A stretch of 64,000 bases of DNA, taken from the NCBI GenBank assembly GCA_019456255.1, contig VRUG01000017.1, forward strand, positions 1 to 64,000. The letters run 5' to 3'. A model generated the notes under the pieces. The model saw only the letters and a list, made by a program, of their open reading frames with translations. It had not been told where the DNA came from and did not search any database. The stretch comes from Planctomycetota bacterium (GTDB lineage Bacteria; Planctomycetota; Phycisphaerae; Sedimentisphaerales; Anaerobacaceae). The position numbers and the translations under genes are program-made. Shown here piece after piece: positions 8,060 through 28,241 of this stretch. How positions within the stretch are numbered: the first letter of the stretch is position 1; every line of letters begins with the position of its first letter.

Positions 8060-8659
8060 TCAGGCTCCCAAGGACAGGGTGTCCATATCTTTTTGTATGA
8101 ACACTCCTGTCAGTTGAGCTAATTTCTTATAAAAATCTGTCTTGGCATGTTTCTGCACATTTTCAACAAATGCCGGCAGCCATCTGGCCAAATGGGTTTG
8201 CAAAAAACTTTTTTGTTTATCGATACAAGACTGGATTGTTTCGGAGTCTGCATCTTTAGTTGCTTCAAGCTGCTTAACGATAAGACAATAGATAAACTCC
8301 AGTTCCATTGCGATATGGTCCGGAGCGTCACTTATTACGATGTCGAGTCCTTCTTTTTCATACCAGTCATTAACATCAATAGTAGATTCGCCCATAAGCT
8401 GACCATCTTCGAGATAGACAGAACCATATGGAGGTGCAAGAAGTTTGAAAGGCCCGACAAATAATTGAGTAAAGTCGACTTTCAAGGTTTCCAGTTCAAG
8501 CTCGGCTCCGATGCAAGCCTCCAGCTCAGAAAAAAACTGGTTGCTATTAGCAACTTCGGCGACCTTCTGCTTGAAATCTTCTTCAGGCAGATAGTAGCAC
8601 TCAGAGAGAAACTTATAACTATCCGCTCTTTGGCAAATGCTGGCTAAAACGTCTTCCAT
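8060..8659 (-). CDS. TorD/DmsD-family molybdoenzyme chaperone
   Basis: A 199-residue cytoplasmic helical protein of the TorD family. These chaperones bind the Tat signal and apo-form of one particular molybdoenzyme until the cofactor is inserted. The conserved core is visible: FTQLFVGPFKLLAPPYGSVYLE around residues 63-85 and DAPDHIAMELEFIYCL around 111-126. It starts four bases after the stop of the catalytic subunit gene, so it is almost certainly that enzyme's dedicated partner (an ArrD-, PsrD- or TtrD-like role). Length is normal for the family. Confidence 0.88.
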   Translation of the reverse strand: MEDVLASICQRADSYKFLSECYYLPEEDFKQKVAEVANSNQFFSELEACIGAELELETLKVDFTQLFVGPFKLLAPPYGSVYLEDGQLMGESTIDVNDWYEKEGLDIVISDAPDHIAMELEFIYCLIVKQLEATKDADSETIQSCIDKQKSFLQTHLARWLPAFVENVQKHAKTDFYKKLAQLTGVFIQKDMDTLSLGA

Positions 8660-8663
8660 TTGG

Positions 8664-11207
8664 TTAGACCTTCACGACTTTCACTCGGGTAACTGCATAA
8701 AATGCTGTAGAGCCGCTCAATCGGTCATAATCAGCAGGAATTATTTCATTGTTGCTTCCGCCTCTGGCTACTTTGCCGTATTCTTTAGCTGCAACTCTGC
8801 CATATGCCCAGTGTCCCTGACCATAGCATTTCGCGACTGTCCCGGGTCTAACGCCTTCCCAAAGTTTTGCGTGACATTCAAGCTGGCCTGTCTTGGAGAT
8901 TAATTTAATATTGTCGCCATCTTTGATACCAAGTTTTTTGGCATCAATTGGATTAAGTTTTGCTACATCGTCCCATGCTACATCGCCTGGGTCGAGGTCC
9001 TTAAATTCCTGATACCACGGGCAGTTTGCCGAACGTCCTTCACGGTTAAGTCTGGACTTGTAGTCAACGTGTATGAATGGGAATTCCTTTTCGCTGCCCC
9101 ACAGATATGGTTCTTCATAATGTGGTACGAAGGCCTGTTCGCCTCTTGCCTGATAGTTACATGTTTCAAGAATATCGTCGACAGTCGTCTTATACTTTTC
9201 GGCATGCGCGGCAAGAGCGGCTTTTAGTGTTTCACTATAGAATTCGAATTTGTGTGTCTTGGTTTTCATCTTGCCCCATCGTTTTCTGTATGGGTATGAA
9301 CTGGAATTCCAGACACCGACTTTTTTGAATTCTTCCCAACCGCTAAATTTGTCTCCGCCCTTATGAGCAGCTGGGTCCCAAAGATTATGAGTAGCATATT
9401 TCAGCGAGTAAAGAGCAAACTCTTTCTCGGTCGTTGCCGATTTACCGGTCTCCGGATCCTTATATTCGCGGTAGTGTCTTTGAAGATTATCAAAACCCTT
9501 CTCTGCGAGCTTTTCAGCAAGGAGCCACGGTATTTCAGTCTCGTCGATGTGGACATCCCAAACCGGCTTGATAACAGGTTCTAATAGTGTGACATGGCGA
9601 TGGCCATTACCCATAGACTTGACATAGCCCCACTTCTCAAACATATGGTGCACCGATGGCAGTACGATGTCTGCGAAATGCGTGAACTCCGATGCATTCG
9701 TAGTGATATGTACGAGGAAAGGTATTTTGGTCAATGCTCTTTCCCATCTTTCGGTCTGCGGGCATGAGAAAGTAAAGTTGTTCATGTAAGCGATAGCAAC
9801 CTTGATCTCATTGGGGTCCTCATTCAAAATACCCTCGGCGGCGTTGTTCGTAATGACAGCACTTCCGGGTTTACCTTTTTTCAAAGCAGGGAACTCTTTT
9901 CTCCCGCGATGGTCAATCTTTTTATGCTTCTTTCCCTTCTTTGCAATGTCATCCATAAAATCATCAGGTTTAGGGAAACTTACAGTGTATTCTTTATTAC
10001 CTGCCAGCGTTCCGCCGACATTATCCACCGAACCGACCAGTCCATTGAGAGCATGTGCAGCCATCGAACTATATCCACCTCTGACCTGCATAGCCGGTCC
10101 GCCTCCAACCCAGCAGATAGCACGAGGCGCTGCTTTGCCAAAATCCGTAGCAACTTGCACGATTTGTTTTACCGGCAGTCCTGCTTTTTCTGCAGCCCAT
10201 TCAGGGGTCTTGTCTTTGAGTTCAATATTCCACCATTTTACTAAGCCGCTCGTGTACTTTTCCGTAAAGTCTTCTTCATTTACCGTTTGCCCCGGGATGA
10301 ATTTGTTGACACCGTCATTGAAGTCACCAACGAACTCTTTGTGCCACAATCCTTCAGTAAGAAGAATATGTGCCATACCGACGGCAAGTGCGCCATCCTG
10401 GCCCGGTTTAATGGGCATCCACTCTCCTGCTTTGGCTGCAGAAGCGGAGAACCTCGGGTCTACAACGGCCACTTGGGTATGATCGAGGACATCGCCCCAG
10501 GCACTGAGATAGTATGATACTTGTCTGTTGGCTGAAAGCGGGTCGGCACCCCAGAGAATAATATATCGAGTATTAAGCACATCGTATTGTCTGTAACTCC
10601 ACAGCCCTTCAGTATAGTATGGGCCAAACTTTTCGGCTTCGGCACAAATGGCACTATGCGAAATATTGTTAGGTGAGCCGATTATCTTGGTCATGCGGTC
10701 ATAAAGAACATCACGCATATAAGAATAACGTCCTCTCATAAGCATATATTTGTGGGTCTCTTTATTCTTGCGCAACTCCAGAATCTTGTCAGCTATTGTA
10801 TCGAGCGCCTCATCCCAGGTAATCGGAACAAACTTCGGGTCCTCATTTCTACCCTTTTTAGGATTCGTACGCTTCATGGGTGTCTTAGTTCTATCGGGGT
10901 CATAAACCTGCTGTAAACTCATATGGCAGCGAGAACAGCAGTTTCCACGATTGACCTTTGAATTAGGATTGCCCCTAACTTTAATTGCCCGTCCGTCAAC
11001 AACGTAGACCTGTACCGAACACCATGAAGTACATCCCTGACAGGTTGTAGATTTCCATTGGCCTGGTTCTTTAGGCTTGGATCCGGTAGTCTGGGCAAAG
11101 GCCTTCAACGTCGGTTGGAAGACTGTGCTAAGTGCAGCAACAGCTGCCGTTGCCGTCGCGGCTTTTAAAAAGCTTTTACGAGTAATTTTGTTATCGTGTT
11201 CTTTCAT
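8664..11207 (-). CDS. Arr/Psr-clade molybdopterin oxidoreductase, catalytic subunit
   Basis: This 847-residue periplasmic enzyme belongs to the DMSO-reductase family, in the group with arsenate (ArrA), selenite and polysulfide/thiosulfate reductases. A Tat signal (ITRKSFLKAA) comes first. A [4Fe-4S] site follows (Cys56, Cys59, Cys63 and Cys90 or 91), then RGRY at 158-161 and SHSAICAEAEKFGP, whose Cys188 should ligate molybdenum. Bis-MGD-binding motifs (WGADPLSANRQ, DPRFSA, KPGQDGA) and a C-terminal molybdopterin dinucleotide domain complete it. RGRY and the surrounding sequence look to me most like ArrA, but no arsenic-resistance genes are near, so the acceptor could equally be a sulfur or selenium oxyanion. 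It is expressed after the ferredoxin and anchor genes. Confidence 0.87.
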   Translation of the reverse strand: MKEHDNKITRKSFLKAATATAAVAALSTVFQPTLKAFAQTTGSKPKEPGQWKSTTCQGCTSWCSVQVYVVDGRAIKVRGNPNSKVNRGNCCSRCHMSLQQVYDPDRTKTPMKRTNPKKGRNEDPKFVPITWDEALDTIADKILELRKNKETHKYMLMRGRYSYMRDVLYDRMTKIIGSPNNISHSAICAEAEKFGPYYTEGLWSYRQYDVLNTRYIILWGADPLSANRQVSYYLSAWGDVLDHTQVAVVDPRFSASAAKAGEWMPIKPGQDGALAVGMAHILLTEGLWHKEFVGDFNDGVNKFIPGQTVNEEDFTEKYTSGLVKWWNIELKDKTPEWAAEKAGLPVKQIVQVATDFGKAAPRAICWVGGGPAMQVRGGYSSMAAHALNGLVGSVDNVGGTLAGNKEYTVSFPKPDDFMDDIAKKGKKHKKIDHRGRKEFPALKKGKPGSAVITNNAAEGILNEDPNEIKVAIAYMNNFTFSCPQTERWERALTKIPFLVHITTNASEFTHFADIVLPSVHHMFEKWGYVKSMGNGHRHVTLLEPVIKPVWDVHIDETEIPWLLAEKLAEKGFDNLQRHYREYKDPETGKSATTEKEFALYSLKYATHNLWDPAAHKGGDKFSGWEEFKKVGVWNSSSYPYRKRWGKMKTKTHKFEFYSETLKAALAAHAEKYKTTVDDILETCNYQARGEQAFVPHYEEPYLWGSEKEFPFIHVDYKSRLNREGRSANCPWYQEFKDLDPGDVAWDDVAKLNPIDAKKLGIKDGDNIKLISKTGQLECHAKLWEGVRPGTVAKCYGQGHWAYGRVAAKEYGKVARGGSNNEIIPADYDRLSGSTAFYAVTRVKVVKV

Positions 11208-11264
11208 TCTGAAAACCCTTCTTTCTGCGCTGAATTAGATTTCATCGCGGTTATCATAAAAGTT

Positions 11265-12134
11265 TTATACCGTCCCCTTAGTGCTTTTGGTGGCACTGGG
11301 ATTGAATTCTCTCACGTAAAAGACTTTGGGTTCTGTTCCGAGATGTTCTTTCAGTCTCCTTGGGCTGTATTTTACCAATAACTTGCTGATATGGCTGTCA
11401 GGGTCGTTCAGGTCGCCCATTATTCTGGCGTTGCAGGGACAAGAGATGACACAGTGAGGAAGCAGGCCCTTGGTGACACGGTGGTCACATAATGTGCATT
11501 TCTCGACAATACCTTTATAATGCAATCCTGAACCCTCTCTAAATTCCTCTCGTGCGGGATTGTAGTTAGGAATCACATTGCCCTTGACTTTCTCGGTCAT
11601 TTCTTTTGGCGAAGATGTACAGCCTTTAATTAAGGCATCATCGCTTCTCCAATGAGGATGCGTTTCTTGAATATGAATAGAGATAACACCATAGGGACAC
11701 ATAGCTATGCAGGTTCTGCAACCGATGCACTTTTCAGGGGAATGCATAGTAATATCGCCATATCCTTTGTGCATAGCTTTAGTTGGGCAACCCTTTACGC
11801 ATGGAGCGTTCTCGCAGTGATTACACAGCGTTGGGAGGGATTTGAACCCAACGTTTGGGAACTTACCCACGGTAGTGGTTTCAACTTTTGCCCATCTATT
11901 TCCCCGCTGGACATTGTTTTCACTCTTACAGGAAATGGCACATCCCCCGCATCCGGTACAATGCTGTAAATCTATTACCATTGCCAATCTTTTACCTTTC
12001 GATTTGTTCTTTGCCGAAACAGTCGTAGCTCCTGCCAGAACCGCTACTCCTGCCCCTCCTGCTTTGAGCAAGTTCCTTCTTGATATCTTTTTTTCTGATA
12101 ATTGTGTTTTATTTTTATGTTCCAAAGATTCCAT
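11265..12134 (-). CDS. Four-cluster ferredoxin subunit of the molybdoenzyme (PsrB/ArrB-like)
   Basis: A 289-residue electron-transfer subunit carrying four [4Fe-4S] clusters. Cysteine groups are seen at CTGCGGCAISC, CNHCENAPCVKGC, CIGCRTCIAMC and CTLC...CVISC, the classic DmsB/PsrB arrangement. Unusually for several relatives it has its own Tat signal (SRRNLLKAGGAGVAVLAG), which shows that it is exported, either alone or with the catalytic subunit. It passes electrons from the NrfD anchor to the molybdenum subunit. The AAGGAG ribosome site stands upstream of the ATG, and the gene starts 20 bases after the anchor gene. Confidence 0.9.
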   Translation of the reverse strand: MESLEHKNKTQLSEKKISRRNLLKAGGAGVAVLAGATTVSAKNKSKGKRLAMVIDLQHCTGCGGCAISCKSENNVQRGNRWAKVETTTVGKFPNVGFKSLPTLCNHCENAPCVKGCPTKAMHKGYGDITMHSPEKCIGCRTCIAMCPYGVISIHIQETHPHWRSDDALIKGCTSSPKEMTEKVKGNVIPNYNPAREEFREGSGLHYKGIVEKCTLCDHRVTKGLLPHCVISCPCNARIMGDLNDPDSHISKLLVKYSPRRLKEHLGTEPKVFYVREFNPSATKSTKGTV

Positions 12135-12154
12135 TGGCTATCTCCTTTTAGTAG

Positions 12155-13003
12155 CTAGATTAGCTGGCCACCAACTACCACCATATAACGCATAGTGTAT
12201 ATTCCGATTAATATTAATATCGAAGCAAGAGCGTGCAAAAAGACGCTTCGTTTTGATCCCAGCAGTATTATCGCCGGCACAATTGCCCCGAGGATGACCT
12301 CTACTCCCAGGAAAAGAACGCCTATCTCGCCTGAGAAGAGGGACTTAGCAACAGCGATGGATTCGGTACCTCCGTTAAAGAGCATCAGCACTTCCGTAAG
12401 GACCAGGCCTATTTCAATTATTACCAACCATGCGACAAGTCTGCCAAGTCTTACGAGAAGACCCATATTTTTGGCAGTTGCCGAAAACAACATCACAACT
12501 GCAATGCCGGAAATGATCGATCCATTGACAAACAATACTGGCAATAACGTAGAGTGCCAGAGCAGTTTGTCAGGAGCCCGAGCTATATGAACAGCCGTAT
12601 ACAGTGCGGTAAACAGAGCAAAGAATAATCCCACACAGCCAAATAGCTTTGCAGTTTTCTCCTTGCCCATGAACAAAAGAGCGGTGTAGATAAAATTCAG
12701 CAAACCGAAGATGTTTAGAAGCCACACTCCCCATGAAAGCATGCTTTGTGGATTAAAAGCGGTAAAAACCCGCCATGCTCTTAATGGGTTGCCAAGATGA
12801 ATGAGCAGCATGAACATTCCTATCCCTAACGCAAGCAGTGATAAAATCGCGCCCGTTTTGGCCAGTGGTTTAAATTCCTGTTTCCAGCGGTAGTTTGCCA
12901 TTACAGAAAACATAAATGCTCCTGCACTAACGCCGCCAAAAAAGAAATACATTACGATCATCCAATCATAGGCTAAATGCACAGCCGTTCCTTGTTCGGA
13001 CAT
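12155..13003 (-). CDS. NrfD/PsrC-family membrane anchor, quinol oxidase subunit
   Basis: A 282-residue membrane protein with about eight hydrophobic helices. It matches NrfD/PsrC proteins, which take electrons from menaquinol in the inner membrane and hand them to the periplasmic ferredoxin subunit. The N-terminal YDWMIVMYFFFGGVSAGAFM and LLIHLGNPLRAWRVF segments are typical. As first gene of the four-gene operon (anchor, ferredoxin, catalytic, chaperone) it shows that the complex is quinol-linked rather than soluble. An AAAGGAGC ribosome site precedes the ATG. Confidence 0.9.
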   Translation of the reverse strand: MSEQGTAVHLAYDWMIVMYFFFGGVSAGAFMFSVMANYRWKQEFKPLAKTGAILSLLALGIGMFMLLIHLGNPLRAWRVFTAFNPQSMLSWGVWLLNIFGLLNFIYTALLFMGKEKTAKLFGCVGLFFALFTALYTAVHIARAPDKLLWHSTLLPVLFVNGSIISGIAVVMLFSATAKNMGLLVRLGRLVAWLVIIEIGLVLTEVLMLFNGGTESIAVAKSLFSGEIGVLFLGVEVILGAIVPAIILLGSKRSVFLHALASILILIGIYTMRYMVVVGGQLI

Positions 13004-13602: not shown

Positions 13603-14970
13603 TTATTCTTCCGAAAGTCTCTGCACCCTGCTGTCAAAACTAACCCCCTTGGCAAAGGTAAACCAAAGCCTCGTACCCTCACCCTCCTGGCTCTCGACAC
13701 CTATCTCGCCACCGTGATGGTCAACTATCTGCTTTGCTATCGACAAGCCCAGCCCGGTACCGTCTTTTTCAATCTTGCGAGCGTTGCTGCATCGATAAAA
13801 TTCATCAAACACCTTATCAATCTCATCTTTGGGAATCCCGATACCAGTATCTATAATCTCCACCAGCACTGAATGGTCGGTACTCTTGGCATTTATCCTG
13901 ACTTCTCCATTCTCAGGGGTATACTTAATACCGTTAAGCAGCAAATTCATAATCATCTCCTCTATGGAAAACTGGCTGCCGTATACCTTGCCTATTGAAG
14001 CCTCAATGTTAACGTCCAGTCGTATCTGCTTCTCTTCCGCACGATTACTAACCGAAGCTAACGCACTTTCAATTGTTTTATCAAGAAAGAAAAAATCCAT
14101 CTCCAACTTGTCACTTAGCCGCATCCGAGTGAGTTTCAACAGCGTCCGTACAAACTCGGTCAGCTTCCTCGTACGATTATGCGCACGATTAACAAAGTCC
14201 GACTGCTTCTCGTTAAGCGGCCCTACCAGCTTGTTTACCACTACATCAAGACAACTCTGGATCGCTGCCAAATGCCCCTTAATGTCATGAGTCACACGCA
14301 AAACGTACTCATCTTTTATACGGTCCTTCTCAAGAAGCTGCTTATTAGCCTCTATGTGCGCCTGCTCGGCGCGTTTAAGCCTGGTCGCAATATAACTCGC
14401 CATATATATCACAAGGTACATAGCCGTTGAAAATGCTAAAAACGTACCAAGAACAAAGAAACCCTCCTTATAAAGACAATGAGGTACAAAGCCGAGAAGA
14501 CAATAATGCGGGATTAAATCTGTATATTCAAGCAATAGCAGGGAACCAAAAAGAAATATTGCCAGACTCCCTTGAAAATAACTCGCGCGAACCGATAACA
14601 GAATACTTGAGATTATCATGTGAAATATGAAATAAAATATAAATGGATTTTCTATCCCGCCGGAAAAATGTAACACAAAGGTCAATATCAATAAATCTAT
14701 GGATATTTGAAAATTGATTATCTTTTTGACTGTATTATAAGGAACTTCACGATTGACGCGGCTCACGTTATTTAACAGCATCAACGTTATTGCATTATAC
14801 AACGCAAGCAAAAACGCGATGCAGTACAATGCGGAATCCTGAATATCCATCCCCCAAATGGTGCTGCTGAAATAGGTACCAACAGCTACTGATACCGTAG
14901 CTATCCAACGAAGTCTGATTAACCAGTATGCCCGTTGTACGAGACGGGTGTTTATCGACACTGGCTTCAT
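13603..14970 (-). CDS. Membrane sensor histidine kinase
   Basis: A 455-residue sensor kinase. About six hydrophobic helices in residues 15-195 form a membrane input domain without a large periplasmic part, so it may sense something inside or at the membrane. The HisKA segment contains the phospho-accepting His228 in RVTHDIKGHLAAI. The HATPase domain shows the N box (NLLLNGIKYTPENG), the G1 box (IDTGIGIP), F box and G2 box (DGTGLGLSIAKQI). Its start is one base from the stop of the response regulator gene, which makes them a cognate pair. It closes the operon that contains the prenyl and radical SAM genes. Confidence 0.92.
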   Translation of the reverse strand: MKPVSINTRLVQRAYWLIRLRWIATVSVAVGTYFSSTIWGMDIQDSALYCIAFLLALYNAITLMLLNNVSRVNREVPYNTVKKIINFQISIDLLILTFVLHFSGGIENPFIFYFIFHMIISSILLSVRASYFQGSLAIFLFGSLLLLEYTDLIPHYCLLGFVPHCLYKEGFFVLGTFLAFSTAMYLVIYMASYIATRLKRAEQAHIEANKQLLEKDRIKDEYVLRVTHDIKGHLAAIQSCLDVVVNKLVGPLNEKQSDFVNRAHNRTRKLTEFVRTLLKLTRMRLSDKLEMDFFFLDKTIESALASVSNRAEEKQIRLDVNIEASIGKVYGSQFSIEEMIMNLLLNGIKYTPENGEVRINAKSTDHSVLVEIIDTGIGIPKDEIDKVFDEFYRCSNARKIEKDGTGLGLSIAKQIVDHHGGEIGVESQEGEGTRLWFTFAKGVSFDSRVQRLSEE

Positions 14971-14971: not shown

Positions 14972-15370
14972 TCAAGTCTTCTTAGGCAAAAGCTTATCTA
15001 CTTCAGCTAACAACAATTCCATATCTACTGGTTTGTCAAGAAAACCATCAACCGGAAGCCACGTCGGGTCGCCTGCCGTCGACTTAAAGTTGATTCCAGT
15101 CTTGTCCTTAACCCCTGTCAACATTAATATTGGGATGTCCTTATAAGCCGCATCTTTCTTCAACTCGCGGGCCATTTCAAATCCATCCTGCCACGTCGAC
15201 ATCATCACGTCCAATATTATCAAATCAGGATTCTCGGATTTGATTTTGGACATCCCCTCTTCTTTTTCGCTGGCCGTCACTACCGTATAATCTTGACTTT
15301 CCAACATTGTCTGCAACGCACAGGTAATGTCTGCATCATCATCTACTATCAATATCTTGCCATTTCCCAT
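14972..15370 (-). CDS. Single-domain response regulator (CheY-like)
   Basis: A 132-residue receiver domain with no output domain. The acidic pocket (VDDDAD, residues 9-14), the phospho-acceptor Asp54 in LIILDVMM, the switch Thr in MLTGVKD and the Lys in LDKPVD are all present. It starts three bases after the prenyl synthase gene and is directly followed by the membrane kinase. With no DNA-binding domain it must act through protein contacts or pass phosphate on, so the pair need not control transcription of this operon. Confidence 0.9.
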   Translation of the reverse strand: MGNGKILIVDDDADITCALQTMLESQDYTVVTASEKEEGMSKIKSENPDLIILDVMMSTWQDGFEMARELKKDAAYKDIPILMLTGVKDKTGINFKSTAGDPTWLPVDGFLDKPVDMELLLAEVDKLLPKKT

Positions 15371-15373: not shown

Positions 15374-16381
15374 TCACCTCACCAAATCAAAAAAAGTTCT
15401 CTTCGTGATAAACTCCGCTAATTCATTCAAGCTCCTCTTATAAGCCGAATCCGTGAGACCTACAAGCCTATTTTTCGCCTCCCCGATATAAAATGACACC
15501 GTCTCATAGGTCAAATCCGCCGCTTTGGAATTAAGAAACAACTCCCTTATCTTACCAAGCCCCGCCCCGTCAACCGTCCCGCCAAGAATACGCTTCAATT
15601 CAGCGCACTGCGATTCGCTGGCAACTTCCATTAACGTTAATAGAGGCAGTGTTATGTCGCCTGCCATTACGTCCTGGCCAGGCTGCTTACCAAGTGACTT
15701 CTCCTTGCTTATTATATCTTCGCAGTCATCTATTAGCTGAAACGCTATTCCAAAATTAAGACCATACTCTTTCAATGCCTCACCATTCTCACTACCAGGA
15801 TTAGCTATGATCGTACCTGCGTGACATGATGCCGCAAAAAGTGACGCTGTTTTCTTCTTGATCACAACGATATAATCTTCTTTAGATAAATTGAAATTAT
15901 GACGCTCAAAAACATGTGTCAACTCACCATCGCACATCGCGTGAACAGCCTCACTCATACACGAAAATAAATCCGAATTCCGACATTCCGCGATTAACTC
16001 AAACGCTTTTGAATAAATATAATCGCCAACTGCGATAGATATGTTGTTGCCCCAACGGGCATTGATACTAGGCTTACTGTGACGCATCGTTGCTTCGTCA
16101 AGTACATCATCGTGAATTAAAGATGCCATGTGGACCAATTCAACTGCCGTCGCTATCTTGATAAGAACGTCACTATCACAAACGTCACCATTGCCCGCAG
16201 ACACCGCCTTGCCGCAAAGAATTACAAGAGCAGGACGAGCACGCTTGCCGGGTGATTGCAACAGAAAATCACCTATCTCAAGAATCGACCGATTACTCGA
16301 CTCTTTGATAGAAGAGGTCAATGCCGATTCCATCTCTTCCATCTCTGCTGCTATAGGCTGATAAATCTCGCGTAACTCCAT
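15374..16381 (-). CDS. Trans-polyprenyl diphosphate synthase
   Basis: This 335-residue enzyme builds the long isoprenoid tail of respiratory quinones by adding isopentenyl units. The two metal-binding aspartate motifs are DDVLD (91-95) in LIHDDVLDEATMRH and DDCED in FQLIDDCEDII near residue 215. GKRARP near 45-50 binds the substrate diphosphate. It lies five bases after the UbiA gene, and this pairing is what would be expected for quinone tail synthesis and attachment. Chain length cannot be read from the sequence. Confidence 0.92.
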   Translation of the reverse strand: MELREIYQPIAAEMEEMESALTSSIKESSNRSILEIGDFLLQSPGKRARPALVILCGKAVSAGNGDVCDSDVLIKIATAVELVHMASLIHDDVLDEATMRHSKPSINARWGNNISIAVGDYIYSKAFELIAECRNSDLFSCMSEAVHAMCDGELTHVFERHNFNLSKEDYIVVIKKKTASLFAASCHAGTIIANPGSENGEALKEYGLNFGIAFQLIDDCEDIISKEKSLGKQPGQDVMAGDITLPLLTLMEVASESQCAELKRILGGTVDGAGLGKIRELFLNSKAADLTYETVSFYIGEAKNRLVGLTDSAYKRSLNELAEFITKRTFFDLVR

Positions 16382-16386: not shown

Positions 16387-17268
16387 CTAATCCCACAAAA
16401 AACCGCTGCCTAATGAAAATGCTATCACTACATGACTCAATACCATCGTGTTAACCGCCAGACGAAACGCCTTCGGGTCATCATAGTCCTTTTCGATAAT
16501 TCGTAAACTCTTTAATATCCACGGAACAAGAATCATAGCAAATATTGATGAAAATGGAATAGCTTGAACTATTACCCCAATCACCAAAAGTAAAAATACC
16601 ACACCCAAGCTCAACTTAAACAATACAATCGCCTTTACTTTCCCAAGACGAACAACAAGATTACGTTTGCCGACCAGGCGGTCCTGATAGTAATCCGGTA
16701 TCTCATTGAGAATCGCAAGGCTAAATATCGACAACCCGCTTATCAATGAAACAAATACAGGCACTATCGATATGCTTTTAGTCTGAATATAATAGCTGCC
16801 CAATAACATAAACGGGCCGTAACAAAGAGCTATCACCGTCTCTCCAAATCCGCGATACGCCCATCGAATCGGAGGACCTACATAAAAATATGCACCCATA
16901 AAACCGACAAATGAAAATGCCATGACCAGCCACCCCGTCGTATACGTTAGATAAAGTCCTATCAAAAACGCTGCGAATACCGCAGATATCCCAAACGCAA
17001 AGAAACTCTTAGGAATGTTTACCTCTTCCAATGAAAAAATACGGTCCCCGCCTTCCTTGGCATCGAAATACTCATTAAAAAACTCGACCGCAATGAGAAT
17101 GAAAAGTATCCCCGTAAAACCTACCCAAAACTGAATCCAATTCAGGGCCCCATGCAATCCAAATGCGATAGCCTGACCTAAAAAAAAAGGCAGAAGACCA
17201 GCGAAAAGAAAGAACCGATATCGTATCAGCCTTATTAAATTAAAGGGTTTTGCAAAACTATACCACAT
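16387..17268 (-). CDS. UbiA-family prenyltransferase
   Basis: A 293-residue membrane protein with about eight helices. UbiA enzymes join a polyprenyl chain to an aromatic ring; MenA- and MqnP-type members act in menaquinone synthesis. The first aspartate motif reads NEYFDAKEGGD (about 66-76) and the second NEIPDYYQDRLVGKRNLVVRLG (near 190). No other menaquinone genes are adjacent. It sits 31 bases after the radical SAM gene and five bases before the polyprenyl synthase, so its aromatic substrate could be a menaquinone precursor or, less conventionally, something made by the radical SAM system. Confidence 0.88.
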   Translation of the reverse strand: MWYSFAKPFNLIRLIRYRFFLFAGLLPFFLGQAIAFGLHGALNWIQFWVGFTGILFILIAVEFFNEYFDAKEGGDRIFSLEEVNIPKSFFAFGISAVFAAFLIGLYLTYTTGWLVMAFSFVGFMGAYFYVGPPIRWAYRGFGETVIALCYGPFMLLGSYYIQTKSISIVPVFVSLISGLSIFSLAILNEIPDYYQDRLVGKRNLVVRLGKVKAIVLFKLSLGVVFLLLVIGVIVQAIPFSSIFAMILVPWILKSLRIIEKDYDDPKAFRLAVNTMVLSHVVIAFSLGSGFLWD

Positions 17269-17299: not shown

Positions 17300-18316
17300 T
17301 TAAATCTCTATCCAATTATTGGATTCACATAAAAGCTTCGGGTCAGCAACAACCTTGTTAGTAAAATCAATCACGTCAGGATGCCTCCACGCCTTTTGGT
17401 AATCTTCCCAAACCTCCTGAAGACTCGACTTGGTCAAGTCACCACAAAGGAACGGCAGCGGGCCTATAAGCTTTACCTTACCATTCGGTATCACCAACAA
17501 ACTCGCCGAGGGACATTCGAGACGATATTTCAATTCCTCAACCACATCGTAAGGATAATGATAAATCTTCATCTTGCCTTCATACTCTTTCGTCTTTGCC
17601 TGAAGCGTCTCAAAGAACTTGGCGTACTCTTCTTCAGTTGAACATAAAATATCCCAGTTCTTCGCCGCTCGCCCAATTCGCATCATCTTACCGGTATAGA
17701 AACCGTAAACACCCAGCGAGTATGCAAGGTCTATGATGTCACCGATTTCATGAATGTTAAACTTCGTCGGTACAAATACTATTTCGGTATTAACGCCGTA
17801 CCCTATCAAACGCTTACAGGCCTCGACCGCTTTTTCCCAGTCGCCGGCCAATCGCAATTGCTCGTGCGCACCTGATGTCGCGCCATCAAGACTTATCTGA
17901 ACTGAACGCATCTTCAAATCCGCGAATCTGCGAGCAACTTCGTCGTCAATAAACTCACCGTTAGTCTCTATCTTCAAACTTATATCGTTACTCCTGATAT
18001 ATTCGCACACATCAAAAATATGCGGACATAGCATAGGCTCACCGCCCGAAATTGCTACGTACGGTATATCAAGTTCAACTATCTGCCTGCAAAAATCAAG
18101 TGCCTGCTCCTTGCTCATCTCGTCGGGCATGCTGTGACCGGCTTCTTCACAACAGTGAAGACAACCCAAATTGCACTCAGCGTTCAACTGCCATGCGATA
18201 AAAAGAGGCGACTTGTAATCTTCAAATGCCTTACCTTCAAGAACCGAACGCAGTTCCTCATCGGGACCCGGATTCGTCAAACGACTCAAATTCTTTCCTT
18301 CTGATATAACACCCAT
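17300..18316 (-). CDS. Radical SAM peptide-modifying enzyme (PqqE-like)
   Basis: A 338-residue radical SAM enzyme. The [4Fe-4S]-SAM motif is CNLGCLHC (Cys48, Cys52, Cys55) and the SAM-binding ISGGEP follows near residue 94. The C-terminal region has LECPSASLLVIPNGKV, FLCGDL and a last LLCESN, which is the layout of a SPASM/twitch domain but with fewer cysteines than the seven of full SPASM. Relatives such as PqqE cross-link or otherwise modify a ribosomal peptide presented by PqqD. Here PqqD is encoded eight bases upstream and a candidate peptide further up. AGGAG precedes the ATG. Confidence 0.87.
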   Translation of the reverse strand: MGVISEGKNLSRLTNPGPDEELRSVLEGKAFEDYKSPLFIAWQLNAECNLGCLHCCEEAGHSMPDEMSKEQALDFCRQIVELDIPYVAISGGEPMLCPHIFDVCEYIRSNDISLKIETNGEFIDDEVARRFADLKMRSVQISLDGATSGAHEQLRLAGDWEKAVEACKRLIGYGVNTEIVFVPTKFNIHEIGDIIDLAYSLGVYGFYTGKMMRIGRAAKNWDILCSTEEEYAKFFETLQAKTKEYEGKMKIYHYPYDVVEELKYRLECPSASLLVIPNGKVKLIGPLPFLCGDLTKSSLQEVWEDYQKAWRHPDVIDFTNKVVADPKLLCESNNWIEI

Positions 18317-18324: not shown

Positions 18325-18576
18325 CTATTCGATGATTAAGTTACTTGCTTTCAATGCATCGGTAAACTCGACAACATCTTTTTCTATCGCTTCGCGCTCG
18401 CCGTCATAGTTACTGCTAAGCTCATCAACTATCTCTGACAACTCTTTGCCATCTTTTACTAATTCCAATATGTCGCCGCCGTGCTCGCTGACGACAAATA
18501 TCTTTTCTGTCAACGTCTCAAAGACGACCGTTCCAAATTTCTCTTTCCGAATTTTTGTGTGCTCTGTAAGGCGCAT
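18325..18576 (-). CDS. PqqD-family RiPP recognition protein
   Basis: An 83-residue PqqD-like protein. Members fold as a small winged helix that binds the leader of a precursor peptide and offers it to a radical SAM enzyme. The pattern GTVVFETLTEKIFVVSEHGGDILELVKDGKELSEIVDELSS is the typical beta hairpin, turn and helix order. It has an AGAGAGG ribosome site and is followed directly by the radical SAM gene. It is a free-standing protein, not fused to the enzyme. Confidence 0.88.
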   Translation of the reverse strand: MRLTEHTKIRKEKFGTVVFETLTEKIFVVSEHGGDILELVKDGKELSEIVDELSSNYDGEREAIEKDVVEFTDALKASNLIIE

Positions 18577-18640
18577 TTAAACCTCTCTTTCTGATGCGGA
18601 GTTTGACTATTACCCTTCAACCTTAAAATAGCTATATTAG

Positions 18641-18671
18641 ATGGCTTGTGCTCTTTACCCACACAAGCCAT
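18641..18671 (-). promoter_or_regulatory. Ten-base-pair hairpin between the peptide gene and pqqD
   Basis: ATGGCTTGTG (18641-18650) pairs perfectly with CACAAGCCAT (18662-18671) around an 11-base loop. On the minus-strand RNA it lies between the short peptide gene and pqqD and is not followed by a T run. It is therefore more likely a stabilising or partial-termination structure, of the kind that lets a precursor peptide be made in excess over its enzymes. Confidence 0.55.
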
Positions 18672-18787
18672 ATGGTCTCACAAATTCTATTTTCAATTTT
18701 CTATTACATAAACAGAAACTACAACGGTCATGCAGTGAAAAACAAATCTACGAAGTTACTTAAATGCCATTCAACCACACTTATCGA

Positions 18788-18931
18788 TTAAGTAAACCGA
18801 ATGTAAGGCTGAGCCATTACTTTACCGGATACGTCCTCAAACTTAGGCTTTTGCCACAAACCTTTTGACTTAGTATCTTTAACCTGGGTACCTGCCGATC
18901 CTTTTGCATCAACTGCCTGTTTCTTTTCCAT
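18788..18931 (-). CDS. Putative PqqA-like RiPP precursor peptide (47 residues)
   Basis: A short gene that is easy to miss. ATG at 18931 has AAGGA eight bases upstream. The product is lysine-rich at first (MEKKQAVDAK) and ends LWQKPKFEDVSGKVM then AQPYIRFT. The W-x-K-P-x-F-x-D/E block (Trp26, Lys28, Pro29, Phe31) is the signature with which PqqA-like precursors begin, so the likely recognition and modified parts lie between Trp26 and Thr47. It has no signal peptide and no cysteine. The PqqD gene is 211 bases downstream in the same direction. Glu32, Asp33, Tyr43, Arg45 and Phe46 are candidate modified residues. It lacks the Glu-x3-Tyr of true PqqA, so PQQ itself is unlikely. Confidence 0.75.
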   Translation of the reverse strand: MEKKQAVDAKGSAGTQVKDTKSKGLWQKPKFEDVSGKVMAQPYIRFT

Positions 18932-19087
18932 ATTCAAATCCTTTCAATGCTTTTTATCAAATCTGCCGATTTCAAACGGATAATTATAACGCTAACTCAT
19001 TAGCTACCGTCTTTTACTCTAATATTCTCGTTTTGTAAAGAATTTTAAGTAATTTTACGCATTTTTTCAGTGCCAGTACCAAAAAAT
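18932..19087. other. Spacer upstream of the peptide gene
   Basis: This AT-rich 156-base gap should carry the minus-strand promoter of the peptide cluster, since the gene upstream of it (ferritin-like) is disrupted. I see no convincing boxes or hairpin. Confidence 0.4.
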
Positions 19088-19550
19088 TTAAAAATAATCC
19101 ATCGCTTTGATTTTTTTAAGTTCAATTTCGTCATGTTCCTCCCACTGGATTAGACTTTCAAAGAGCCCTTTAACTTCCTGGTCTATCGGCTGTTCAACAA
19201 CCTGACGGTAAAATTTCACCAAACATTCATCGAATTTGATTGCTGCATCAAGGATTTCGCCAGCAGTCGCATCTGCCGATATATCAACGCCCTCAAGACA
19301 ATGACAATCGGCACCCTGAGGGTCGTATTGAAGCGGTGTATGGCATATCCGGCTAATACGCTCAGCACTTTCAACAGGAAGCTTAAATATTGCGATGTGT
19401 GTTCTGCGACGGTGACGGCTCATATAATCTGCCGGCAATCGAACACCCTCGCGGCTACTCTCATGCGATACCTTCGCATAAAAATCCGGCCAGAATTCCC
19501 TCAAATTCTTCCGCTCTCTCAAGCACTTGCGCTACATTGGTCATTCCCAT
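19088..19550 (-). pseudogene. Ferritin/rubrerythrin-like protein, interrupted by a frameshift
   Basis: From ATG 19550 (GGGAGG seven bases upstream) the frame reads MGMTNVAQVLERAEEFEGILAGF and then hits a stop. Removing one base from the A5 run at 19480-19484 (T5 on the coding strand) joins it smoothly to FYAKVSHESSREGVRL and about 120 more residues, ending FESLIQWEEHDEIELKKIKAMDYF. The helical pattern with E..E at the start and EEHDE at the end resembles ferritin-like di-iron proteins. The gene lies 27 bases after nqrF in the same direction. It may be a true pseudogene, a sequencing error in the homopolymer, or a slippage site. The second frame alone (to 19522) has no proper start. Confidence 0.7.
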
Positions 19551-19577
19551 AGCACAGCCTCCCAAATTTTATTGTAC

Positions 19578-20699
19578 TTAGAACTTATCGTAGAATATAT
19601 CGTCCGGCTTGATGCCTTTTTCCTCCAATATTCGCGTTACTGCTTCAATCATAGGAGGCGGGCCGCACAAAAACGCCTGTCGAGCCAAATCTGCCTCAAG
19701 GAACTTATCGGCTGAAAGATGGATAAAGCCGGTTTCTCCGTCCCACTGCTCACCTTCTCCAAGCTCATCACTCAACGCGTAAACTACATGAAAATTCGGA
19801 TGTTTTTTAGCTAATTCTTCAAATTCCTGAAGATAAAACACATCTGCCGTCGTCCTGCAGCCAAAGAATAGCCAGCACGAACGGTCAGGCCACTTATCAT
19901 AAAGCGTGTGAATAATATTCTTCATCGGAGCCATTCCGCAACCGCCGCCAACGCAGATAATTTCTACATCAGGGTCATCACTAAGTTCAAACTCTCCGTA
20001 AGGGCCGGTAAATATCACAGGGTCGCCCTCTTGCAAATTATGAAGATAAGTCGAACCGATTCCGCCTGGAACAATGCGAACATTCAATTCAACTACATTC
20101 TCATCATAGGATGGTGAACTTATAGAGTAAGCCCTGAATATTGGCCCTTCATCGGACGGCGCCTGGATCTGAACATACTGGCCTGGCCTTTGAGAAATTT
20201 CCGCAGGCTCATTCAAACGCATACGAATCTCTTTGATATCATGAGTCAATACTATAGAACTCTCAACCGTCGCAGAGAACATCTTTACACTCAGCAGCTC
20301 TTCAGGTATCTGAACAAAAATATCTTCGCGAATCTTAACCTGACATGCCAAGCGAACATCAGCACGAATCTCCTTGCGGTCAAGATAAGGAGTCTCCGTC
20401 GGAAGCAATGGGCCGCCGCCTGCCGTCACGGTAATCTTACAATGACCGCAAGAGCCCTTACCGCCACACGCTGACGGGATAAATATCTCATTGGAATATA
20501 ATGCCGAAAGTAATGTCTGGCCCCCGTCAACCTCTATAGGCTTCTCACCTTTATTGATATCAATCTTGCAGATGCCATAGTTTACAAGAAACTGCTCAGC
20601 TACTATCAACAACGCTGACAATGCTACCGCCAAGCCGGCAAAAGATAACACCGACCAAAGATAAAATTTAATTCCTGTTACTGCTAAAAGACAAACCAC
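19578..20699 (-). CDS. nqrF: Na+-translocating NADH:quinone reductase subunit F
   Basis: The NADH-oxidising subunit, 373 residues, slightly shorter than the usual 405-410. One N-terminal membrane helix (about 12-38) is followed by a [2Fe-2S] ferredoxin domain (CGGKGSCGHC and a later LACQV) and a ferredoxin-reductase-type FAD/NADH domain (FRAYSISSP, GGCGMAPMK, FLCGPPPMI). The frame opens just after an in-frame TGA, so the first possible start is GTG 20699 with GGAG ten bases upstream. It is the last intact gene of the operon and follows nqrE by 16 bases. Confidence 0.93.
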   Translation of the reverse strand: MVCLLAVTGIKFYLWSVLSFAGLAVALSALLIVAEQFLVNYGICKIDINKGEKPIEVDGGQTLLSALYSNEIFIPSACGGKGSCGHCKITVTAGGGPLLPTETPYLDRKEIRADVRLACQVKIREDIFVQIPEELLSVKMFSATVESSIVLTHDIKEIRMRLNEPAEISQRPGQYVQIQAPSDEGPIFRAYSISSPSYDENVVELNVRIVPGGIGSTYLHNLQEGDPVIFTGPYGEFELSDDPDVEIICVGGGCGMAPMKNIIHTLYDKWPDRSCWLFFGCRTTADVFYLQEFEELAKKHPNFHVVYALSDELGEGEQWDGETGFIHLSADKFLEADLARQAFLCGPPPMIEAVTRILEEKGIKPDDIFYDKF

Positions 20700-20715
20700 T
20701 TTTCATTTTCTCCAT

Positions 20716-21303
20716 TTATTGAATTGAAACCATTCCTGCAAAACCCATGAACGCCATCGCCAAAACACACGTCACTATCATCGCTATCGGCACGCCCCTG
20801 AAGGGCTCCGGTATATTACTGTAACGCATCTTTTGCCGCAGACCCGCCATCATTATTATCGCAAGCATCCAGCCTAAACCCGAACCAAATCCATATCCTA
20901 CCGATTGAATGAAATTGTAATCACGGATTATCATAAACAGCGATGCGCCTAAAATCGCACAGTTCACCGTTATCAAAGGCAAAAAGATTCCCAACGCAAA
21001 ATAAAGCTTCGGGCTGAACCTCTCAATGAACATCTCTACGAACTGAACGAACGCTGCTATGACCGCGATAAAAACAATAAATGTCAAATGGTCCAGACCA
21101 AGAGGCTCTAGTACGAAATAATATATCGCGTAATTAATAATCGACGTCATCGTCATAACAAATGTCACTGCGGTACCAAGCCCTATCGCTGTACTTATCT
21201 GCCCGGAACATGCTATGAAGGAACACATCCCCAGAAAGTTCGTCAGCAGAATATTATTCGTCAGTACCGCCGCAACTAAGATTATTATGGCTGAAGTTTC
21301 CAT
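20716..21303 (-). CDS. nqrE: Na+-translocating NADH:quinone reductase subunit E
   Basis: A 195-residue membrane subunit with six helices, homologous to RnfA and NqrD. The cysteine in GMCSFIACS is one of the ligands for the iron-sulfur cluster shared with NqrD inside the membrane. VNCAILGASLF is the matching half-site. Its ATG overlaps the stop codon of nqrD by one base (TAATG), showing translational coupling. Length is normal. Confidence 0.94.
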   Translation of the reverse strand: METSAIIILVAAVLTNNILLTNFLGMCSFIACSGQISTAIGLGTAVTFVMTMTSIINYAIYYFVLEPLGLDHLTFIVFIAVIAAFVQFVEMFIERFSPKLYFALGIFLPLITVNCAILGASLFMIIRDYNFIQSVGYGFGSGLGWMLAIIMMAGLRQKMRYSNIPEPFRGVPIAMIVTCVLAMAFMGFAGMVSIQ

Positions 21304-21968
21304 TATTTCTTCTCCTCTTCAGGCTCGGGGCCCTTGATGGCATTAAATATCGCTATCACTATCCCCAATGCGAAAAACGCTCCGGGAGCTAAAATCATCA
21401 ACTGGTTAGGCGTATACCACGATTCCGACAAAAGCTTAATACCAAGAACTTCACCGCTGCCCAAAAGCTCACGGAAAAATCCAATTATCGCAAGAACCAC
21501 CGCATAACCAAAACCATTCGCGAATCCGTCAACCATAGAAAGTATAGGCGGGTTCTGAAGTGCGAACGCCTCCGCCCTGCCCATGATAATACAGTTGGTA
21601 ATTATCAATCCAACATAAGGGCCAAGCTGTTTGGACATGTCCCAGTAAAATGCCTTCAAAAACTGGTCGAACAAAATTACAAACGTCGCGATAATTGCAA
21701 CCTCCGCTATCATTCGAATCCTATGGGGCGTGACATTTCGCAATAAGGAAACAAACAAATTCGAAAATACACCTACAAAGATCAACGCGATTCCCATCAC
21801 GATTGAGTTCTCTAATTTATTAGTCACCGCAAGAGCAGAACATATTCCCAACACCTGAATCGCAAGTGGGTTACTCGTCCACGCGCCCTCTTTCAGGGTC
21901 AACATTCCCTTACCGCCGCATAAACCTTTGCTGACGCATGGGCCGCATACTGGTTGGTTATCTGCCAT
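21303..21968 (-). CDS. nqrD: Na+-translocating NADH:quinone reductase subunit D
   Basis: A 221-residue six-helix membrane subunit. LGICSALAVTNK and TNCIIMGRAEAFA carry the conserved cysteines of the intramembrane cluster shared with NqrE. The N-terminus has an extra segment CGPCVSKGLCGGKG with three cysteines, which I do not expect in NqrD and which could bind metal or be fortuitous. The ATG overlaps the nqrC stop by one base. Confidence 0.93.
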   Translation of the reverse strand: MADNQPVCGPCVSKGLCGGKGMLTLKEGAWTSNPLAIQVLGICSALAVTNKLENSIVMGIALIFVGVFSNLFVSLLRNVTPHRIRMIAEVAIIATFVILFDQFLKAFYWDMSKQLGPYVGLIITNCIIMGRAEAFALQNPPILSMVDGFANGFGYAVVLAIIGFFRELLGSGEVLGIKLLSESWYTPNQLMILAPGAFFALGIVIAIFNAIKGPEPEEEKK

Positions 21969-22591
21969 TATTTACCGCTCTCCTGTACTATCTTTTCCGA
22001 TATCTCATCGAGCATCGCTTCGACCTTGTCACAAGTCATCGTCGCGCCGGTTATAGCGTCAACTTCATTGATCCCGCCCTTGGCACCGCCGCTGCGAATA
22101 GTAATCCCGACGTTACCTTTTTCATCAACAATTTTCTTACCCTTAAACTGGTCACGGAACCAATCCGCCGCAATCTCACCGCCGAGTCCGGGCGTCTCTT
22201 CCTGCTCATAGAACGTAACACCGCGAATCGTCCTCATATCAGGCGCCAATGCGAGAAATCCCTTAATAGTTCCCCACAATCCAGGCCCCTCAAATGCGAC
22301 ACCAATCGTCTCTTGCCCCTCAGCTCCGGCCTTAGGAACAAAACGGTAAAGCTCTAACTCACCCTTTGTCTCCTGAACGACATTCGCCTTAAATACCTCA
22401 ACCAATTCCTGAGCTGTCGCTCCTTCGGGATAAGGCACCTGCAGAACATTCAAAATATTAAGCTTTATCTCTGCTTCACGGTTGGCTTCCTTATACGGCG
22501 CGGTAAAACTCGACGCCGCTGTCAATAGCAATGAGCATACCGTACCAAGAGCCGCTGCGTAAAATAATGTATATGCGTTGTTACCCTTCAC
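21968..22591 (-). CDS. nqrC: Na+-translocating NADH:quinone reductase subunit C
   Basis: A 207-residue subunit with one N-terminal membrane helix and a periplasmic FMN-binding domain. The flavin-attachment motif DAITGATMT (near residues 180-188) contains the threonine that carries covalent FMN. No apbE gene for the flavin transfer is in the window. The gene overlaps nqrB by 11 bases. It is somewhat shorter than the typical 250-residue NqrC. Confidence 0.92.
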   Translation of the reverse strand: MKGNNAYTLFYAAALGTVCSLLLTAASSFTAPYKEANREAEIKLNILNVLQVPYPEGATAQELVEVFKANVVQETKGELELYRFVPKAGAEGQETIGVAFEGPGLWGTIKGFLALAPDMRTIRGVTFYEQEETPGLGGEIAADWFRDQFKGKKIVDEKGNVGITIRSGGAKGGINEVDAITGATMTCDKVEAMLDEISEKIVQESGK

Positions 22592-23669
22592 CGCGAAGCC
22601 TCCTCAAACGAAATCCTACTACTATCTCATCAAGAATCGGGGCGATTATATTACCAAGCAATATCGCGAACATAACACCTTCGACATAACCTGTAAAATT
22701 ACGTATCGATATCGTCACTACTCCGATTATTATTCCGTAAAACCATTTGCCTGTGTTTGTCACCGGACTTGTCACTGGGTCGGTCGCCATAAAGAACGCC
22801 CCGAAAAGCATCCCGCCCGCAAACAAATGCCATAACGCTGGTGCAAAACGACCCGGGTCCGAATGATGAAGAACTCCTGCCATCACCCCTGCCGAAAGCA
22901 AAATACTAACAACCGTCCGCCAGTTCGCGACACGAGTAAACAGCAAAAACACTCCGCCAATAATTATCAGTGCCCCTGATGTCTCACCGACACTGCCTGA
23001 TGTCGTCCCTAAAATCATATGAGAAACTTCTACTACACTGCCCTGCTTGGCCAACACCAAAGGCGTCGCCGAACTAATCGCGTCAACACTCGAAGCTGTC
23101 ACGTACTGCATCAATCTGCCGACGCCCGCTTCGCCTGCCGCTACCCAGTTACTCGACATCGCCGCAGGATAAGCCAATGCCAAAAAGCAGCGGCCTATCA
23201 ACGCAGGATTAAATAAGTTCCGGCCTGTACCCCCGAACAGCTCCTTACCGACAAATACACCGAAAGCTACACCAACACCTACCATCCATAATGGCAGCGT
23301 AGGAGGCAATATCAACGGAAACAGCATACCAGTCACCAAAAAGCCCTCGTTGATTTCCTCCTTGCGAACCATCGCGAAGATTACTTCAACCACCCCGCCA
23401 ACTGCATAAGATACTATTATCATCGCGATAATCTGAAGACCGTAAAAATACAACGATGCCAAAACACACGGTATCACACCGATAATTACCATACTCATAA
23501 AACGCTTAACATCGATCGGGTCGCGAACATGAGGTGCCATCACCGTCCGTGCCGCTGGTGCGAAAAAGAAATTCTCCATCGCCTCGTACACAGGCTTAAA
23601 AGCCTTAAACTTTCCGCCTTCATGAAATGACGGGCTTACTTTCTCGAATATATCTCGTAATATTTTCAC
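22581..23669 (-). CDS. nqrB: Na+-translocating NADH:quinone reductase subunit B
   Basis: A 362-residue membrane subunit with about ten helices that conducts sodium and carries covalent FMN. The attachment region reads ISSATPL, equivalent to the SGATPL of studied NqrB, with the threonine conserved. GRNLFNPALIGRCFL and FFMATDPVTSPV are characteristic RnfD/NqrB segments. Its start overlaps the nqrA stop by four bases. Confidence 0.94.
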   Translation of the reverse strand: MKILRDIFEKVSPSFHEGGKFKAFKPVYEAMENFFFAPAARTVMAPHVRDPIDVKRFMSMVIIGVIPCVLASLYFYGLQIIAMIIVSYAVGGVVEVIFAMVRKEEINEGFLVTGMLFPLILPPTLPLWMVGVGVAFGVFVGKELFGGTGRNLFNPALIGRCFLALAYPAAMSSNWVAAGEAGVGRLMQYVTASSVDAISSATPLVLAKQGSVVEVSHMILGTTSGSVGETSGALIIIGGVFLLFTRVANWRTVVSILLSAGVMAGVLHHSDPGRFAPALWHLFAGGMLFGAFFMATDPVTSPVTNTGKWFYGIIIGVVTISIRNFTGYVEGVMFAILLGNIIAPILDEIVVGFRLRRLRGEG

Positions 23670-25078
23670 TCGGCACTCTCCTGAGCTTCCTGTTCACGCT
23701 TCAATGCCTCTAAGCGAGCCTCTTCTTTTTCCTGTTCAATCTCGATCTTAGCATCGAAAAATTGCTGCTTAAGCTCGATCTTTGACGGACACACAAACGA
23801 ACACAATCCGCACTGAACACACAAATCAACTCGCGACGCATCCGCTTCTTCAATCAAATCGCTATACAAATATTTATGAATACGATGAGGCAATATCTCT
23901 GCAGGACATACCTCCGCGCAGTAATTACATGACACGCAGGGACGCCCCTCACCGCGAAATGCCGTCGTAAACCTTTCACGGAAATTCTTACGCAATGAAC
24001 TCAAAAAACATTCGCTGTAAGACTGACGGTCCCAGCCGGGACGAACGAACCCTAAAAACTCCCGCTCCTTCAATTCCGAAATTATCGTCAAACCCCGGCA
24101 TTCACTATCAACACCCAGAGCATCTATAGCCATCATCTCACCGCTTAGCATACCATTTATAATAACACGGTAATCGTAACCGGATGCATATGTATCAAGA
24201 ATCTTCTTCAATGGATAACCAGGCATCACGCAGATATGAATCGGTGAATGAACTCTCGGACCGCCAACTGACAAAATCCGCAACAAACAAGGCTTACTCA
24301 TTGTCAATGCTCGGTCTACTGCAAGAACGCCCTCGGTCTTAATACTCCAAACAGGCCCCGCTTCTTTTTTAAGCCCAAACTTTCGAGCCAATATATTAAA
24401 GTTATCGTAAGGATACCTCATCGGCACCTCTATCAACTTAACCCACGCGTAGCCGCGAATATGTTCACGAACGCGAGTCGCAAACGCTGACGTTATATCA
24501 GGCATTATCAAATATATAGGCTGATATTCCAATAGCGACTGAAGATGTTCAAGACCACGAGTAAACTGCAGCAAACGATTGTGCAACTGAGCGTCACCGC
24601 GAGCAACAAATGGCTCAAGACTTACAGTCGATACTATTACTGCCTGGGGTGTACCAAGCGGGTCAGGAACATTGCCTGAATAAGCTTCACTGAAAAATTC
24701 CCACGCACCAAGATTCAATAACTTATATCGCTTAATGCCCCCGGCACCCATCTCCTGAACTATATGAGACATCTCATCTTCGTCGGTATGAGGATGCTCT
24801 TCGTGACGAGCTATTTCATCAAGAACTATATAACCAGCTGCGACATCAAGACGAACCTTACCAGCACGAGGCGCCAGCAGTGGTATTGAATAATTATCAG
24901 GGTCAGTCGCAAGAAATTCTCCGGGCTCAACATTGTCGCCTTCAGTTACGCGAACATCACTGAAATTAAAACGCTTCGTTTGCAAAGGCAAATAAAGAAC
25001 CTTAGGCTCTGGCATAACCTTAACCAGCCCCTCAGGCCGACCTTCAAGCAATACGTTAAAACCACCTTGGAATTTCAT
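23666..25078 (-). CDS. nqrA: Na+-translocating NADH:quinone reductase subunit A with two [4Fe-4S] motifs
   Basis: The first gene of the pump, 470 residues, binding quinone on the cytoplasmic side. The N-terminal biotinyl-like and middle regions follow NqrA (FQGGFNVLLEGRPEG; APRAGKV). The C-terminus has CVSCNYCAEVCP and CVQCGLCSFVCP, two complete [4Fe-4S] motifs like those of RnfC; well-studied NqrA proteins have lost most of these cysteines. A charged helix of about 30 residues ends the protein. ATG 25078 is preferred to TTG 25081. The other five subunits are clearly NQR rather than RNF (no rnfB, nqrF present). Confidence 0.85.
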   Translation of the reverse strand: MKFQGGFNVLLEGRPEGLVKVMPEPKVLYLPLQTKRFNFSDVRVTEGDNVEPGEFLATDPDNYSIPLLAPRAGKVRLDVAAGYIVLDEIARHEEHPHTDEDEMSHIVQEMGAGGIKRYKLLNLGAWEFFSEAYSGNVPDPLGTPQAVIVSTVSLEPFVARGDAQLHNRLLQFTRGLEHLQSLLEYQPIYLIMPDITSAFATRVREHIRGYAWVKLIEVPMRYPYDNFNILARKFGLKKEAGPVWSIKTEGVLAVDRALTMSKPCLLRILSVGGPRVHSPIHICVMPGYPLKKILDTYASGYDYRVIINGMLSGEMMAIDALGVDSECRGLTIISELKEREFLGFVRPGWDRQSYSECFLSSLRKNFRERFTTAFRGEGRPCVSCNYCAEVCPAEILPHRIHKYLYSDLIEEADASRVDLCVQCGLCSFVCPSKIELKQQFFDAKIEIEQEKEEARLEALKREQEAQESAE

Positions 25079-25222
25079 CAATTCGTTTCTCGAAAAATAT
25101 ACGCTTTAAAACACCAAAAAACGGGAAATAGTCCAATACAAACTAACTATCTTAACATTAGCCCAGCATTCTATACAAACTCACAGTGGGATTCAACTAA
25201 ATATCCCATCTTTTTTACGCAT

Positions 25223-25401: not shown

Positions 25402-25521
25402 AATGAAATCTGTTTGCTCACTTTGAATATTGGGATGTTTGGTCGAGTGACACGACTCCGTATTCTCACAAGTGAGAATCTTAAAAAATTTTTGCTTTTT
25501 CAAATAATGACAGGAATTTTA

Positions 25522-26913: not shown

Positions 26914-26924
26914 AAGGTGAAAAA

Positions 26925-28202: not shown

Positions 28203-28241
28203 CCCTGATTACTGCAAAGGCGAATAAACTATTGCATGGGT

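Follow-up and report, generated by a model that had tools for sequence, protein, structure and literature searches.

A Conserved Peptide Encoded with PqqD-like, Radical SAM, and UbiA Proteins, and Its Possible Conversion to a Membrane Quinone

The window analyzed here, a 64,000-nucleotide stretch of planctomycete DNA, contains a 144-nt open reading frame that translates to MEKKQAVDAKGSAGTQVKDTKSKGLWQKPKFEDVSGKVMAQPYIRFT and lies near genes for a PqqD-like protein and a radical SAM enzyme. Is so short a frame a gene, and what might be made from its product? An initial annotation described it as an unannotated PqqA-like precursor preceded by a ribosome site, and placed the PqqD-like and radical SAM genes beside it; frame, ribosome site, and both genes were confirmed in place (Table 1). 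That description overlooked a UbiA prenyltransferase, a polyprenyl synthase, the respiratory context, and the retention of PqqA-like spacing with Met in place of Glu. The prenyltransferase, often joined by the synthase, is the key partner that it left out beside the peptide/PqqD/radical SAM trio.

Table 1. Positions of the features discussed, numbered along the window
Feature	Positions	Strand	Basis or remark
ArrA-like molybdoenzyme, FeS subunit, NrfD membrane subunit, TorD chaperone	8060..13003	(-)	
Sensor histidine kinase	13603..14970	(-)	kept in L021, L024, L034
Response regulator	14972..15370	(-)	kept in L020, L021, L024, L034
Long-chain polyprenyl diphosphate synthase, HepT-like	15374..16381	(-)	PF00348 213 bits
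UbiA-family prenyltransferase, MenA/UBIAD1-like	16387..17268	(-)	PF01040 92.1 vs 34.2 bits
Radical SAM enzyme rSAM1	17300..18316	(-)	PF04055 1.8e-23; CxxxCxxC present
PqqD-like peptide chaperone (RiPP recognition element)	18325..18576	(-)	PF05402 46.9 bits vs cut-off 23.4
Perfect hairpin of 10 bp in the peptide-pqqD interval, a possible attenuator	18641..18671	(-)	
Precursor peptide gene, 47 aa, 144-nt frame	18788..18931	(-)	ORF and orthologue conservation
Shine-Dalgarno AAAGGA of peptide gene, upstream of ATG	18939..18944	(-)	sequence
Hypothetical protein between nqrF and peptide	19088..19522	(-)	kept in L021, L024
Na+-NQR-type operon, nqrA-like, B, C, D, E, F (NADH:quinone oxidoreductase)	19578..25081	(-)	

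A conserved precursor gene

The peptide consists of a leader containing W26 and P29 followed by an invariant C-terminus, MAQPYIRFT. In a comparison of orthologues, W26, P29, V34, S35, and M39 to T47 are invariant, and the leader varies freely outside the first four of these, which means that the W-x-K-P-x-F motif proposed initially held only in its W and P. We scanned about 85,000 species genomes with a radical SAM alignment and obtained 66 loci. At 65 of them a small ORF ending exactly in MAQPYIRFT sits beside the radical SAM orthologue; at the remaining locus (L039) the contig begins a short distance before pqqD. Retrieval ran through the radical SAM protein alone, so the identity of the C-terminus is not an artefact of the search. 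The same nine residues are encoded by 48 distinct 27-mers, with synonymous positions varying freely, and selection therefore acts on the peptide. The frame is a genuine gene and not a chance ORF. The role of its product as a RiPP-type precursor is nearly certain, with the action of the radical SAM and PqqD-like proteins on it inferred.

The peptide is confined to radical SAM carriers among 392 genomes of the phylum, where profiles of the two proteins select the same 2 genomes; a third match to the peptide profile is weak and contains internal stops. No library family model claims the peptide, as the initial annotation had held, the top match being TIGR02107 (PqqA) at 11.5 bits vs a cut-off of 20, and MAQPYIRFT was not found in the literature searched.

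The PqqA spacing W-x12-[E/M]-x3-Y is kept, with an invariant Met replacing Glu. The distance from W to the C-terminus equals that in Klebsiella PqqA, and in this register Tyr43 aligns with the Tyr of PqqA and Met39 with its Glu, though beyond WxKP the match is weak (P ~0.017). The Klebsiella sequence was confirmed as PqqA by TIGR02107, a model that gives two PqqA sequences 44.8 and 39.9 bits. All 64 of the 64 scored copies have Met-x3-Tyr (MAQPY) instead of Glu-x3-Tyr. We reject a true PqqA, since the TIGR02107 cut-off is unmet and the Glu is absent; the earlier inference that the product is not PQQ is supported. The accompanying claim that pqqB, pqqC, and pqqF are missing is backed only for the neighboring ORFs, among which none was recognized.

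Protein partners and genomic distribution

The PqqD-like protein passes the PF05402 gathering score and does not reach the equivalog TIGR03859 (41.1 vs 46); its nearest solved sequence is TbiB1 (5v1u). In rSAM1, the SPASM auxiliary-cluster cysteines are missing, and conserved Cys residues are limited to the CxxxCxxC motif and one near the C-terminus. The predicted structure of rSAM1, with a pLDDT of 88, comes closest to the RiPP maturases SkfB, SuiB, and PqqE, and its top NCBIfam match, the mycofactocin radical SAM TIGR03962, does not meet the cut-off (125.8 bits vs 265). Both catalytic Asp-rich motifs of the UbiA protein are invariant, and human UBIAD1 is its nearest relative among solved sequences, while it scores under the NCBIfam MenA equivalog cut-offs (TIGR00751, 80.2 vs 102; TIGR02235, 112 vs 225). 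Of the two other UbiA homologues in this genome, one resembles, by eye, a decaprenyl-phosphate ribose pathway enzyme and the other an Ebo-type protein.

A radical SAM search of 198 genomes of the class yielded two further orthologues and the 392 phylum genomes one more, each with a peptide ending in MAQPYIRFT ahead of PqqD-rSAM-UbiA. The 66 loci span Planctomycetota, Omnitrophota, Elusimicrobiota, Lentisphaerota, Pseudomonadota, and others. Conservation of the peptide, YIRFT included, and its co-occurrence with pqqD and the radical SAM gene had been proposed as checks on the initial reading; both were borne out, with peptide, PqqD, and rSAM1 together at nearly every locus, and the reading of a PqqA-like precursor acting with these two proteins is supported. 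UbiA is present at 61/66 loci, and four more are truncated by contig ends. We found no paper describing PqqD together with UbiA in the literature searched.

Two gene orders recur. Order A (Planctomycetota, Omnitrophota, Lentisphaerota, and others) runs peptide-PqqD-rSAM1-UbiA, often with a polyprenyl synthase or a response regulator/kinase downstream of UbiA. Order B (Elusimicrobiota and Pseudomonadota) runs PqqD-rSAM1-UbiA-rSAM2-peptide-rSAM3, with the polyprenyl synthase placed in front in most Elusimicrobiota. A tree separates rSAM1, rSAM2, and rSAM3 into paralogue groups; only this grouping is used, as rows L025, L050, L064, and L077 of the rSAM2/3 tree were mis-extracted. As side observations, L026 carries a tandem pair of rSAM1 copies ahead of UbiA (511-2600), and the PqqD proteins of order B Elusimicrobiota (L047, 7536-7976; L061, 7621-8061) have an N-terminal extension of about 60 residues without a Pfam match.

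In the window, the set lies between the Na+-NQR operon upstream and an Arr/NrfD-type respiratory reductase downstream. NqrB and NqrD exceed their equivalog cut-offs, and an Rnf complex was rejected in favor of NQR. Outside the window, NQR genes adjoin the set at L021, L024, L025, L028, and L045. The operon is found upstream of the set in Planctomycetota and Omnitrophota, and NqrF lies beside the set at one Lentisphaerota locus. The downstream group is inferred to provide a quinol-oxidizing respiratory reductase context.

Several features of the surroundings are recorded separately. The NqrA-like protein (23666-25081, minus strand) is an unusual chimera of NqrA and RnfC, its C-terminus being RnfC-like and of the 4Fe-4S type; the ArrA-like molybdoenzyme scores 1299.7 bits vs a cut-off of 1600, as a divergent arsenate-type respiratory reductase; and the hypothetical gene next to nqrF (19088-19565, minus strand) has an apparent frameshift near its start relative to the read-through L021 copy, possibly an assembly error. 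A group comprising cobA-hemD-like, hemL, methyltransferase, and hemB genes (25414-31056) adjoins the NQR operon. The heme (Ahb/NirJ) role that cobA-hemD, hemL, and hemB might suggest was rejected, as the radical SAM protein scores far under the AhbD/NirJ cut-offs and heme genes do not flank the set in most relatives. The hairpin was rejected as a conserved attenuator; it is seen in the window and missing from relatives.

Quinone genes in carrier genomes

A census of quinone genes covered 50 carrier genomes, most of them drafts. MenD was found in 0/50 and MqnA/D in two, one of these weak, and a ubiquinone-type UbiA exceeded its cut-off in six, every one proteobacterial, in which the cluster product is therefore not the sole quinone. 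By these markers, 42/50 carriers have no known quinone route. MqnA/D occurs in 143 of the 198 genomes of the class, and the comparison of planctomycete carriers with non-carriers of the class gives a Fisher P of 3e-5, kinship being ignored. In the order to which the window belongs, MqnA/D is mostly missing from genomes without the cluster as well as from carriers, so that part of the absence there is a matter of descent. Six non-proteobacterial carriers among the 42 have an orphan MenG/UbiE over cut-off, and two carriers without a known route (G583, G593) have a canonical cytochrome bd quinol oxidase.

The proposed product and its alternatives

On balance, we favor the inference that the cluster makes a membrane quinone from the peptide, prenylated by UbiA. 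No product has been detected and no chemistry shown. The evidence in hand consists of the gene set, its extreme conservation and co-occurrence, and the fact that most carriers lack known quinone genes. In the proposed route, the PqqD-like protein would bind the W..P region of the leader and would deliver the C-terminus to rSAM1, a radical SAM enzyme with a single cluster, for rewriting, most plausibly by a link from Met39 to Tyr43. PqqE joins Glu to Tyr in PqqA, and Met39 and Tyr43 fall on these two positions, which makes a Met-Tyr link the obvious guess. The modified aromatic piece would then be excised and released, the MenA-type UbiA would attach a polyprenyl chain from the neighboring synthase, and the resulting quinone would serve the Na+-NQR and the Arr/NrfD-type reductase encoded next to the set. 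Every step of this route is inferred, from leader binding and the Met-Tyr link to release and prenylation, as is the identity of the product as a quinone.

Against this reading stand the lack of a detected product, the share of descent in the missing MqnA/D, the draft state of most genomes, the six carriers with a ubiquinone-type UbiA, the weak register match to PqqA, and two further observations. No peptidase or ring-finishing enzyme was seen in the cluster, and one Burkholderiales locus (L085, 8001-9100) has an intact peptide gene beside broken radical SAM genes and no UbiA. A Wolinella-type fumarate reductase adjoins the peptide there, a context of little weight because the radical SAM genes are broken and UbiA is absent.

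Known systems resemble the set only in part. The PQQ pathway shares the short precursor, the W..P and equally spaced Tyr, the PqqD-like chaperone, and a radical SAM maturase, but here the peptide misses the PqqA model, rSAM1 lacks the auxiliary-cluster cysteines, and UbiA and a polyprenyl synthase are added. Mycofactocin (MftA, MftB, MftC) likewise has a small, strictly conserved C-terminal core, PqqD-like and radical SAM proteins, and an inferred redox cofactor as product, but the cluster is far under the mycofactocin cut-offs and includes a prenyltransferase in place of a glycosylated cofactor route; the MftA core is unlike MAQPYIRFT. The menaquinone pathways (Men and futalosine) share a MenA-like UbiA, a polyprenyl diphosphate synthase, and NQR and NrfD-type partners, whereas MenD and MqnA/D are missing from nearly all carriers, and peptide, PqqD, and radical SAM genes replace those that make the ring. 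Lasso peptides and sactipeptides with PqqD/RRE proteins share that chaperone family, and SkfB is the nearest solved radical SAM structure, but no lasso cyclase or protease was seen, and the core is invariant and without cysteines. A lasso peptide was rejected, its only support being a weak match (0.037) to paeninodin in one relative and the PqqD resemblance.

Among the alternatives, UbiA might prenylate the modified peptide directly and so give a prenylated lipopeptide or a lipid-anchored redox cofactor; such a non-quinone product seems unlikely. PqqD and a RiPP-type radical SAM enzyme are present, and nine invariant C-terminal residues exceed the need of a two-residue cofactor; against this, enzymes of the MenA/UBIAD1 kind, to which UbiA belongs, act on small aromatics, and the orphan MenG/UbiE and bd quinol oxidase of carriers suggest a quinone. 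We likewise consider it improbable that DHNA, either scavenged or supplied by a route that escaped detection, is turned by UbiA into ordinary menaquinone, with the peptide product separate and serving the same respiratory chain. UbiA does score as MenA-like, though under the equivalog cut-offs, but the peptide trio and UbiA are kept together across phyla in two gene orders, and scavenging of DHNA would be odd for so many unrelated lineages. An antimicrobial or signaling RiPP with a lipid tail, to which RiPP-type logic and the sensor kinase and response regulator downstream at some loci might point, is very unlikely, as such peptides normally diversify and this core is identical across phyla, and no exporter, immunity, or peptidase gene was recognized in the cluster.

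The membrane quinone reading can be extended, more speculatively and with doubt slightly outweighing support, to a ribosomal isoprenoid-quinone route, in which a ring cut from the encoded peptide (Met39, Tyr43) is prenylated by UbiA and which in some carriers might account for the MK-10 recorded in Rhodovibrio, as an alternative menaquinone or menaquinone-like pathway. For Rhodovibrio, MK-10 has been reported alongside Q-10, which is unusual for its order (PMC7179689, PMC10963914, PMC11316597). These measurements concern the genus or R. salinarum, not the carrier R. sodomensis (L059), whose locus has order B without a polyprenyl synthase and whose quinone genes the census did not cover. Rhodothalassium salexigens (L071, G586) carries the cluster and lacks MenD and MqnA/D; this species may also contain MK-10. 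A 2026 survey notes that undiscovered quinones may exist, that some lineages are devoid of quinone pathways, and that four species have measured MK yet no MK pathway (PMC13386864).

The system is thus real, widespread, unnamed, and of RiPP type, and its assignment to a quinone is a testable inference that we hold with slightly more belief than doubt. To our knowledge, all known respiratory quinones derive from small metabolites, and the known redox cofactors of peptide origin, PQQ and mycofactocin, are soluble. The hypothesis can be tested now, since two carriers, Rhodovibrio sodomensis and Rhodothalassium salexigens, are in culture. If it is true, making a membrane quinone by a ribosomal route would unite peptide-derived cofactors with respiratory quinones and would offer candidate genes for lineages surveyed as devoid of quinone pathways (PMC13386864).
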